Of a stretch of DNA of 40,414 nucleotides, positions 9,940 to 14,807 are shown one piece after another. Within the stretch, counting starts at the first letter, position 1. Each line of letters begins with the position of its first letter. The translations under genes and the position numbers were made by a program. This stretch comes from Chloroflexota bacterium (GTDB lineage: Bacteria > Chloroflexota > Dehalococcoidia > Lucifugimonadales > Lucifugimonadaceae): contig JABMNN010000117.1 in assembly GCA_013204545.1 (NCBI GenBank), positions 1 to 40,414 on the forward strand, read 5' to 3'. Under the pieces are notes generated by a model. It worked only from the letters and a program-made list of their open reading frames with translations. It had not been told where the DNA came from and did not search any database.

Positions 9940-11283
9940 ATGGCTTCATCAGCGCACACTTCGCCTAACCATCCTTACATTCCATCTACCGATTCTGAAC
10001 GTGCCGAAATGCTTGGTGCCATCGGCGTTGACTCACTTGACGCCCTACTCGAGGATATTCCTGCTCAGCACCGGCATCCAAAGCTAAACCTTGCTGCAGG
10101 GCTTTCAGAACAAGAGCTTTCGACAGTATTTGGGTCGATAGCGGCTGAAAATGCTTCTCCTTCGAGCGGGTATATATCGTTTTTAGGAGCTGGTTCGTAC
10201 AGTCACTACATTCCTTCTACAGTTCGTTCGATCCTACAAAGAGGTGAGTTCGTAACTGCTTACACGCCGTACCAGCCAGAGGCCGCTCAGGGCACCCTGC
10301 AAGTCGGTTTCGAGTTCCAGACCATCGTCTGTCAATTGACTGAGATGGAAGTTGCTAACGCCGGTATGTACGATGGTCCTACGGCGTTTGCTGAAGCTTG
10401 TCTCATGGCAGCTCGAGTGACGAAGCGAACGAAAATCGGCGTACTTTCGAGTACAGATAAGCGATTATCAGACACGCTTCTGGCGTACTCGAAATACCAA
10501 GGCATTGAGATCGTCGAAGTCGCAGCCGATGCAACGGACATTCCAGATGATCTGGCGTGTATTGGCATCCAGAGTCCCAACTTTTTCGGTGAGATCGAGG
10601 ATGTCCAACGGCTCACCAAGCTCGCACACGACAATGGCGCACTTTCTGTAGTTCACGTGAATCCGACCGCTTTAGGGATGTTCAAGGCCCCTGGGGAGTT
10701 CGACGTAGACATCGTTACTGCCGAAGGGCAGCCTCTCGGTGTACCGATGGCGTTTGGTGGTCCGTACGTCGGGCTGTTCGCCTGCAAGAAGGCGCACATA
10801 CGCCAGATGCCGGGGCGAATTATTGGGCGTACTACTGATACGAAAGGCAGAACCGGGTATGCACTCACGCTTCAAACTCGTGAGCAGCACATTCGACGTG
10901 AGCGTGCGACATCGAATATTTGTACAAGCACGCAGTTAATTGGCCTGATGGTTACCGTGTATGCCGCGACGCTCGGCAAGCAGGGAATGAAGGATCTGGC
11001 GAGCCTCTGCTACCAAAAAGCGCACTATGCAGCAGCTGAAATCAACAAGCTTGATGGCTACTCAGTTAAGTCAAGTGGCACGTTCTTCCACGAGTTTGTC
11101 GTTACATGCCCAAGTGCACCGCCTAAGATCAATGAAGCATTGCTTAAGAAGAAAATCATTGGTGGACTTGATATTTCTGATCGTTCAGAAAGCGGCATGC
11201 TCGTATGTGTGACCGAAACGAGTTCGAAAGCCGATATTGATAGATTTGTAAAAGCTCTGAGTGAGATCGGAGTTTCGGCGTGA
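9940..11283 (+). CDS. gcvPA: Glycine dehydrogenase (decarboxylating) subunit 1
   Basis: N-terminal half of the two-subunit form of glycine decarboxylase (P protein). With GcvPB it decarboxylates glycine and loads the aminomethyl group on GcvH. The product has 447 residues. Motifs include FLGAGSYSHYIPSTVRSILQ, FVTAYTPYQPEAAQGTLQVG, the AEGQPLGVPMAFGGPYVGLF segment and GRTTDTKGRTGYALTLQTRE with the following HIRRERATSNICT. Its TGA stop overlaps the GTG start of gcvPB by 4 bp (GTGA), so the two halves are translationally coupled. The split form is common in Firmicutes, Thermotogae, archaea and Chloroflexota, while E. coli has a fused P protein. Confidence 0.97.
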   Translation: MASSAHTSPNHPYIPSTDSERAEMLGAIGVDSLDALLEDIPAQHRHPKLNLAAGLSEQELSTVFGSIAAENASPSSGYISFLGAGSYSHYIPSTVRSILQRGEFVTAYTPYQPEAAQGTLQVGFEFQTIVCQLTEMEVANAGMYDGPTAFAEACLMAARVTKRTKIGVLSSTDKRLSDTLLAYSKYQGIEIVEVAADATDIPDDLACIGIQSPNFFGEIEDVQRLTKLAHDNGALSVVHVNPTALGMFKAPGEFDVDIVTAEGQPLGVPMAFGGPYVGLFACKKAHIRQMPGRIIGRTTDTKGRTGYALTLQTREQHIRRERATSNICTSTQLIGLMVTVYAATLGKQGMKDLASLCYQKAHYAAAEINKLDGYSVKSSGTFFHEFVVTCPSAPPKINEALLKKKIIGGLDISDRSESGMLVCVTETSSKADIDRFVKALSEIGVSA

Positions 11284-12870: not shown

Positions 12871-13722
12871 ATGATTATCGATACACATGTTCATGTTTGG
12901 GAGATGCCTCCGATCGCTCCGATCGGTCCAACCGCGCCCAACTTCACATCAAAACCAAAAGCCCACGCAAACGCTGAACTGCTGCTCGAAGATATGGACG
13001 TAAACGGAGTCGACAAGACTGTTATCGTTCAAACTTCGTTCTCGACGTGGGACAACGAATACGTTGCTGGTTCGGCTATCAAATACCCGGATAGATTTGT
13101 TTCGATGGGTATGGTCGACCCAATGGACGATAATAATGTCGAACAGGCTGCGTACTGGATGGATGAACGGAAGATGCAGGGTTTTCGATTCCACCCACAG
13201 TACTACTCGGAGGTCGACATATTGAAGCGACCTGAGAACGATGCCATGTTCAAGGCAATCGAAAAACGTGACGGCGTCATCCAGATCCACAATCGTCCAG
13301 AACATGCTCATCAGCTCGATTATGTAGCAGCGAAATACCCTGGAATCACATGGCTAATCGACCACATGATGTATCCGGAGCCCAAGATGGCTCCCGATTG
13401 GGATGTGTACAAACCTGTTCTTGCTCTAGCCAATCACGAAAACGTTCTGATGAAAATTTCGGACATTCACAACCGTTCCGTAGGTGATTATCCGTTTGCA
13501 GACATGCACGACATTATCAAAATGGCAATGGATGCCTTCGGGCTCGATCGTGTTATGTGGGGCACGGGTTATCCGGGCTATCACCGAGTCGAAAATGGCT
13601 GGCTTTCACTTGAAGACGAACTAAAGCTCGTCCGTGAGGGATTTGACTGGCTTACGTCGGACGAGAGAAACAAATACCTTGGCGGAAACGCTATGCGTAT
13701 ATGGAACTGGGATAGCGAGTAG
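12871..13722 (+). CDS. Amidohydrolase family 2 (COG3618-like) metal-dependent hydrolase
   Basis: A 283-residue TIM-barrel protein of the amidohydrolase-related family that includes lactonases and decarboxylases such as aminocarboxymuconate-semialdehyde decarboxylase. The metal-binding HxH is in IIDTHVHVWEMPP (His6, His8). Further conserved histidines are in GFRFHPQYY, VIQIHNRPEH and TWLIDHMMYP. The C-terminal motif that usually reads WGSDYP or WGTDYP is WGTGYPGYHR here, so the usual Asp is Gly233. A GGT/GAT difference is one base. This could mean altered chemistry or a non-enzymatic paralog. The ATG at 12871 sits directly before the family N-terminus. It is 48 bp upstream of the peroxiredoxin gene and likely cotranscribed with it. 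Substrate unknown. Confidence 0.8.
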   Translation: MIIDTHVHVWEMPPIAPIGPTAPNFTSKPKAHANAELLLEDMDVNGVDKTVIVQTSFSTWDNEYVAGSAIKYPDRFVSMGMVDPMDDNNVEQAAYWMDERKMQGFRFHPQYYSEVDILKRPENDAMFKAIEKRDGVIQIHNRPEHAHQLDYVAAKYPGITWLIDHMMYPEPKMAPDWDVYKPVLALANHENVLMKISDIHNRSVGDYPFADMHDIIKMAMDAFGLDRVMWGTGYPGYHRVENGWLSLEDELKLVREGFDWLTSDERNKYLGGNAMRIWNWDSE

Positions 13723-13770
13723 AATTCCTGATTGCAGAGCCAACAGGAACACACGGAGCACTGACGAAAC

Positions 13771-14247
13771 ATGGCACTTCAAGCTGGCACACCAGCACCA
13801 GATTTCACTTTGGACGCTCACTCTGGTGCGATAAAACTTTCGGACTTACGCGGTAAGACAGTGGTTATTGGATTTCATCCTGCCAGCTTCACTGGTGGTT
13901 GACTGAATCAAGTGCGCGGGTTCCGCGCAAACTACGAGAAGTTTCAGGATCTGAATACTGAAATCGTTGAGATCAGCTGTGATCCTCTCCCGGTGCAAAA
14001 AGCATGGGTCGCCAGCATGAAAACGGAAGGCAGCGACGAATACGGTCAAGTTCCTTTCCCTGTTGCCAGCGATTTTTGGCCTCATGGAGAGGTGACAAAG
14101 GCGTTTGACGTTTTCAATGAAGAAACCGGAAAAGCGAAACGCTCGGTATTCATTATTGATGGCGAAGGGATGATCCGCTGGTCGAATGTGTACACCGATT
14201 CGATCCCGGCTTCAGGCGAGCTACTCCACGAAATCGAAAATCTGTGA
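13771..14247 (+). CDS. Selenocysteine-containing peroxiredoxin (AhpE/BCP-like), in-frame TGA at 13900-13902 read as Sec44
   Basis: A thiol-peroxidase-family protein that would reduce hydroperoxides in the cytoplasm. Read through the TGA, it is 158 residues, close to AhpE and BCP. The N-terminus has AGTPAPDFTLDAHSG, and the active-site motif P-x-x-x-T-x-x-C appears as PASFTGG then TGA, with P37, T41 and residue 44 in the peroxidatic position. The same frame continues without further stops through LNQVRGFRANYEKF, EISCDPLPVQKAW (Cys70), FPVASDF and KRSVFIIDGEGMIRW. A SECIS-like hairpin starts 10 nt after the TGA. The frame ends in tandem TGA TGA at 14245-14250, and thrS and gcvPA also stop at TGA, so the code is not generally reassigned. 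Gene callers would miss the gene or start it at GTG 13912, without the active site. Alternatives are a TGT/TGC sequencing error or nonsense mutation. Sec machinery is not in this window. Confidence 0.87.
13903..13947 (+). promoter_or_regulatory. Bacterial SECIS-like stem-loop after the peroxiredoxin TGA
   Basis: The upper stem is 7 perfect base pairs (13913-13919 with 13923-13929) closing a GTT apical loop at 13920-13922. The loop starts with G and lies 17 nt after the TGA, within the distance known for bacterial SECIS elements. A lower stem pairs CTGAA (13903-13907), directly after the TGA, with TTCAG (13943-13947). All of it is inside the coding sequence, as in E. coli fdhF. Confidence 0.75.
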
Positions 14248-14338
14248 TGAGGTCACTCTCTCTGAGAGATCAGGCGCGGATTGGTTGAGTTGAAATGATG
14301 ACACTTCGGTATAGTTGAAATGTTATAGGCTCAATATC

Positions 14339-14363
14339 GTCATCTTGAACTTGATTCAGGATC
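14339..14363. repeat. Interspersed palindromic repeat unit
   Basis: GTCATCTTGAACTTGATTCA followed by GGATC is a near-perfect palindrome (ATCtTGAA-cttga-TTCAgGAT). The same core occurs degraded at 6777, and partial matches lie at 33055-33076 and 35709-35727, all in intergenic DNA. Confidence 0.55.
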
Positions 14364-14396
14364 TTGCTCGCAGGAACTAACCGAGCTGAAGCAAGC

Positions 14397-14807
14397 ATGG
14401 CTGTAGTCCCCAATACGCTTACGTTGAATCTGGCAAAATCACTTTCTGTCGCCATTGGATTGTTCGGCTTCGCGTTTACCGCTTGGATCTTCTACTCAAC
14501 ACTTGTGCTGTATCCGAACGACGCCAGTTTCTCAGTATTGGGCGCGATCTTGTCCGTGATTCTGGTGACACTGGGAGTGAGCTCAGCTGTTCTAGGTCGT
14601 CTGGTGCGACGACGAATATCGGGTCAAACGTTCTCGACCGGAGCGATATACGGTCTCGCTGTAGGTATAGCAATCTTGTGGCTGCCACTTTTCTTACCGT
14701 CACCGTCTATGGTCGTGTTCTTTCTGATCTCGGGCTCACTCTTGCTGTTGCACGCTCTGTTTGGTCGTCAGAAAATAGAATTATCTACCAGATTGGCGGA
14801 TCGATAG
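14397..14807 (+). CDS. Small multi-pass membrane protein of unknown function
   Basis: I do not recognise this 136-residue protein. It appears to have four hydrophobic segments: SLSVAIGLFGFAFTAWIFY, VLGAILSVILVTLGVSSAVL, IYGLAVGIAILWLPLFL and VVFFLISGSLLLLHALF. A basic cytoplasmic-type loop (RLVRRRIS) lies between the second and third. ATG 14397 is preferred to the upstream TTG at 14364, which lies next to the palindromic repeat. It is followed at 49 bp by another small membrane protein on the same strand; the pair could form a unit and ends at a shared terminator. No function is inferred. Confidence 0.6.
   Translation: MAVVPNTLTLNLAKSLSVAIGLFGFAFTAWIFYSTLVLYPNDASFSVLGAILSVILVTLGVSSAVLGRLVRRRISGQTFSTGAIYGLAVGIAILWLPLFLPSPSMVVFFLISGSLLLLHALFGRQKIELSTRLADR

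Follow-up and report, generated by a model that had tools for sequence, protein, structure and literature searches.

A peroxiredoxin frame with a TGA at its active site

The window, by which we mean the whole 40,414-nucleotide stretch of DNA analysed, is contig C109 of a SAR202 Chloroflexota assembly (2.95 Mb, 134 contigs, 92% complete) that lies near Candidatus Lucifugimonas marina and whose close relatives are Chloroflexi, Dehalococcoidia and SAR202 records, including strain JH1073. On its forward strand, positions 13771-14247 hold a peroxiredoxin frame that opens at ATG 13771, meets a TGA at codon 44 (13900-13902) and then runs through 114 sense codons (45-158) to a tandem TGA TGA (14245-14250). 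ATG 13771 is the only start in this frame because a further TGA lies at 13762-13764. A GGAG at 13755-13758 may act as the ribosome-binding site; it sits 12 nt 5' of the ATG, a long spacing, and when the 17 same-genus orthologues were read by eye, 16 had it at the corresponding site. Translation confirmed the claim of the initial annotation that the in-frame TGA occupies the peroxidatic position and is followed by 114 open codons. With TGA read as selenocysteine (U), the product has 158 residues, and translation and alignment both place the active-site motif P-A-S-F-T-G-G-U (PxxxTxxU) at 13879-13902, numbered P37-A-S-F-T41-G-G-U44. The tandem stop, to which the same annotation had drawn attention, is present in the sequence but is not conserved: it was found in the window copy only, and the 17 same-genus orthologues end in TAG (9), TGA (6) or TAA (2).

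The read-through protein matched the Pfam AhpC-TSA domain (5.1e-32) over residues 6-137, and homology therefore spans the TGA. A mechanical ORF finder using standard stops reported only a 111-aa piece starting at GTG 13912 (13912-14247), from which the active site is absent, just as had been predicted for gene callers. Scanning the window for TGA-split frames recovered 31 stretches, 13771-14247 among them; on visual inspection, the majority of the rest overlap with longer ORFs that are read in a different frame or from the opposite strand. No promoter or terminator was found in a scan for these elements, and an Rfam search of the whole window returned one tRNA only.

The predicted product resembles AhpE

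The best PDB sequence match of the read-through protein was AhpE (5c04, 5e-24). Its AlphaFold model (mean pLDDT 93.3) was likewise closest to AhpE, which filled ranks 1-12 of the PDB comparison with TM-scores of 0.87-0.90 (query length), rmsd of 1.5-2.0 and 31-32% identity, in agreement with the affinity to AhpE that had been proposed for the gene. The window protein and AhpE (1xxu, 1xvw, 4x0x, 5id2, 5c04) have in common the PxxxTxx(C/U) site, an SDFWPHG block and VFNE; they differ in that the peroxidatic residue is Cys in AhpE and predicted Sec in the window protein, and in that the same-genus forms of the latter carry extra residues around positions 85-95. In an alignment of 25 sequences, F40, T41 and G43 were invariant, and position 44 was the only invariant Cys/Sec column, with Cys70 replaced in many rows. 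By nearest sequence, predicted fold and the lack of a conserved resolving Cys, the window protein would thus be nearest to the AhpE-type 1-Cys peroxiredoxins.

The TxxU peroxiredoxins, namely PrxU of Eubacterium acidaminophilum and those of the Sargasso Sea and GOS metagenomes, have the same peroxidatic Sec and an AhpC/TSA domain, to judge from the available parts of three papers (PMC1088965, PMC2398784, PMC13188914). Identity with PrxU itself was considered and rejected, as the match to that model (NF040737) scored 80.7 bits against an equivalog cut-off of 270, and none of the 13 NCBIfam matches of the window protein reached its own cut-off. Genomes of the window's genus also encode a Cys-containing AhpE/BCP-like peroxiredoxin paralogue (mostly FSGVC, e.g. 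L073) that is roughly 30-40% identical in sequence to the window protein. This paralogue differs in having Cys at the site and a second Cys five residues further on (15 loci read).

The TGA is conserved among relatives

A TGA-interrupted orthologue was found in 17 of the 19 same-genus genomes (own genome included), one of these 17 assemblies being a complete chromosome, and the TGA codon falls at the identical position in all 17. In the remaining two, G015 (89% complete) and G016 (85%), the best match was uninterrupted and scored about 54 bits. Among the carriers of the TGA form is the cultured strain Ca. Lucifugimonas marina JH1073 (CP046147). When homologues were checked for Cys or TGA at codon 44, as had been recommended, the best-scoring 30 loci from 60 relatives (L026-L055) had TGA in 29 cases and TGT in one, the order-level relative L048; the TGA aligns with this TGT and with the catalytic Cys of AhpE. 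Loci L056-L069 appear to be named records of genomes already included under another handle and were counted once. In a phylum-wide sample of 301 genomes, 34 had a match at 1e-21; the match contained an internal TGA in 17 of these and no TGA in the other 17. TGA is also found in two Betaproteobacteria records (L070, L071) and in Litchfieldia salsa (L072), and selA is present in the genomes of all three.

Relative to the window gene, dN across 16 orthologues was 0.065-0.22 upstream of the TGA and 0.07-0.217 downstream of it; dS was mostly >1 or not computable in these comparisons, which makes dN/dS rough. These data bear on the explanation that the gene is a pseudogene or contains a sequencing error, with TGT or TGC turned into TGA by a nonsense mutation or a base error. 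TGA is one base away from either codon and the assembly is a draft of 134 contigs, yet the same TGA recurs in the assemblies of 17 same-genus genomes as well as in distant relatives, dN is as low downstream as upstream, and the frame is intact and gives a confident AlphaFold model. We regard such an error as extremely improbable, and the recurrence of the TGA in the 17 assemblies bears out the earlier argument that a chance nonsense mutation is unlikely to have struck the catalytic codon.

Synonymous change is suppressed just downstream of the TGA

A putative bacterial SECIS hairpin of 7 bp lies at 13913-13929, with a GUU apical loop at 13920-13922. The TGA-to-loop distance is 17 nt and the loop starts with a conserved G, features that we take to suit the bacterial SECIS model. 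Among same-genus TGA-form orthologues, same-residue codon pairs differed in only 88 of 920 cases (0.096) at codons 47-53; the corresponding proportions were 0.515 for codons 1-43 and 0.492 for codons 76-158. No random 7-codon set out of 100,000 was as low as codons 47-53 (119 usable columns), and the lowest of 147 seven-codon windows fall on the hairpin. The Cys paralogue showed no such dip: across 15 of the 18 fetched loci (L078, L079 and L092 were dropped because they did not match the motif expression), the proportion was 0.542 for the matching stretch, 0.53 for the codons upstream of it and 0.578 for those downstream. The constraint therefore goes with the TGA form.

The folding energy of the hairpin was not significant (z -1.40, with 20 of 200 shuffles as good), and RNAalifold and pair counts gave no support for covariation: the single double-change pair was reached by 68 of 500 shuffles and the covariation score by 361 of 500. 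Two of the seven pairs are broken in both betaproteobacterial rows (L070, L071) and one in L039, and an Rfam search of 13600-14400 returned two chance-level snoRNA matches only. Thus, of the SECIS-like hairpin described in the initial annotation, the suppressed synonymous change speaks for the element, but folding energy and covariation do not.

The weak energy and covariation, together with the GTG start at 13912 just 5' of the hairpin, could fit a different element, such as an internal start or a regulatory RNA, with the UGA read through in some other way or serving to control truncation. A product starting at 13912 would, however, have no active site, the minimum among the 147 windows coincides with the hairpin, and the Cys paralogues show no corresponding dip. 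We consider this explanation very unlikely, and the reading of the hairpin as a putative SECIS is preferred.

The genome encodes a complete selenocysteine gene set

The own genome contains a tRNA-Sec (65.1 bits; anticodon TCA by ARAGORN), selA (517.7 bits), selB (338.3 bits joined) and selD (374.2 bits, with one in-frame TGA), and hence the complete set selA, selB, selC and selD. The absence of these genes had been named beforehand as grounds for giving up the selenoprotein reading; all four are present.

Three further genes of this genome contain in-frame TGA codons. In selD (L021:1501-2430, G000:C91), the TGA lies within SCAGUAGK, and SelD is probably a selenoprotein itself, judging by this motif. 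A second TGA-containing peroxiredoxin-like gene (L074:1501-1941, minus strand, G000:C31) has a WUTFC (UxxC) motif, and its nearest model is SelL-related, with a score below the cut-off. A ResA-like gene (L075:1471-1800, G000:C13) carries SWUAC at its active site, and its best match was the WAxxUGC model, also below cut-off; it likely represents a further thiol-redox selenoprotein.

Across the 60 relatives, selA was over the cut-off in 53. For six of the seven genomes without selA (G022, G023, G024, G032, G033 and G052), there was no TGA-interrupted match among the matches listed, one of the two matches of G022 lying outside these. The seventh, G026, has a TGA-interrupted match and selB over the cut-off with no selA over the cut-off, in an assembly that is 86% complete. 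Conversely, there are selA-bearing genomes without the TGA form among the matches listed, such as G035, which had no match at all. We drew no conclusion from the counts of tRNA-Sec over the cut-off (53 of 60 relatives), since one tRNA-Ser in the own genome scores above this cut-off too (49.1 bits).

It could be argued that TGA is a general sense codon in this lineage, e.g. for Trp or Gly, given that the frame opens once TGA is read as sense. However, TGA serves as an ordinary stop elsewhere in the window, as the initial annotation had held: of 27 larger ORFs picked by hand, four stop at TGA, including gcvPA (9940-11283), 14 at TAG and nine at TAA. The Sec gene set is complete, and both AhpE and L048 have a catalytic Cys at the position aligned with the TGA, so that general reassignment is exceedingly improbable.

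The Sec form in the peroxiredoxin tree

The tree that we built has 63 rows, of which 47 are Sec and 16 Cys; the TGA residue was coded as C in it, so that the trait column carries no signal. Of its 60 inner branches 26 are open, the deep order is only approximate owing to long branches, and the root is only drawn. The Sec/Cys label requires five changes on this tree, with at least three changes forced by well-supported branches. The part of the tree that holds the window lineage comprises 34 Sec and three Cys rows, in a sample chosen by likeness to the Sec query. The betaproteobacterial rows L070 and L071 group with the SAR202 family member L043 (98/95), a nesting that suggests lateral transfer of the selenoprotein gene, mis-binned contigs being another possibility. 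In another Chloroflexota lineage (L094-L097, L100, L107, L113 and L118), the TGA falls within a peroxiredoxin motif of another kind, which reads FTNTU in five of the eight loci; these loci form a well-supported group of their own in the tree, made up of Sec rows only.

Discussion

The conserved TGA, the sel genes and the codon constraint support the original suggestion that 13771-14247 is a probable selenoprotein gene. We consider it highly probable, on the strength of these sequence comparisons, that its product would be an AhpE-like one-site peroxiredoxin with Sec at UGA codon 44, inserted through SelB and tRNA-Sec with the hairpin as putative SECIS. In this mechanism, SelB and tRNA-Sec would insert selenocysteine at the UGA, and the hairpin just 3' of it would serve as the SECIS. 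The U44 selenolate would then attack a hydroperoxide and be converted to a selenenic acid. 1-Cys peroxiredoxins use an external reductant; because no second Cys is conserved in the window protein, we infer a one-Sec cycle in which reduction of the selenenic acid would fall to a thioredoxin-like partner or a low-molecular-weight thiol. It is thus very probable that this ocean bacterium of the SAR202 group decodes a stop codon as selenocysteine and in this way builds the active site of an enzyme that destroys peroxides.

Selenocysteine peroxiredoxins have long been known, and the initial annotation had said that they are known. In the parts of the sources available to us, the Sargasso Sea study describes 43 Prx selenoproteins with TxxU (PMC1088965), and the GOS study 253 Prx selenoproteins (PMC2398784); TxxU Prx are also listed in a review of 2026, where the enzyme of the anaerobe Eubacterium acidaminophilum is the reference (PMC13188914). 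TxxU Sec-peroxiredoxins are therefore not new as a kind, and the SAR202 gene is a fresh example. The terms AhpE and Chloroflex are absent from the main texts of these three papers, and a full-text search of the open-licence literature returned no paper with both 'selenoprotein' and 'SAR202'. Within the accessible portions of other work, a paper on selenocysteine and SAR202 mentions selA and selB for sponge symbionts and not the peroxiredoxin gene (PMC5649159), a paper on AhpE and selenocysteine (PMC9952270) contained no description of a Sec AhpE, two further papers (PMC12013277, PMC9402790) contained nothing on a SAR202 Sec-peroxiredoxin lineage, and the term 'selen' is absent from a SAR202 cultivation paper (PMC10444878). 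Our analysis adds an AhpE-like lineage of Sec-peroxiredoxins in SAR202, which carries a putative, codon-constrained recoding element and is represented in a cultured strain.

The available part of the cultivation paper describes SAR202 as ubiquitous in the ocean, the growth of cultured strains as inhibited by light, and strain JH545 as killed by continuous light (PMC10444878). Speculatively, this light sensitivity could be linked to peroxide stress. We offer only as a tentative idea, less likely than its opposite, that a distinct SAR202 AhpE-like lineage, almost always in the Sec form and with a codon-frozen hairpin, has been passed between Chloroflexota and Betaproteobacteria and forms a main peroxide defence of these light-sensitive slow growers. 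For annotation, the gene means that a frame finder with standard stops misses a peroxiredoxin active site; for the biology of SAR202, the presence of the predicted Sec peroxiredoxin in cultured JH1073 would allow a direct test of whether peroxide defence depends on selenium.
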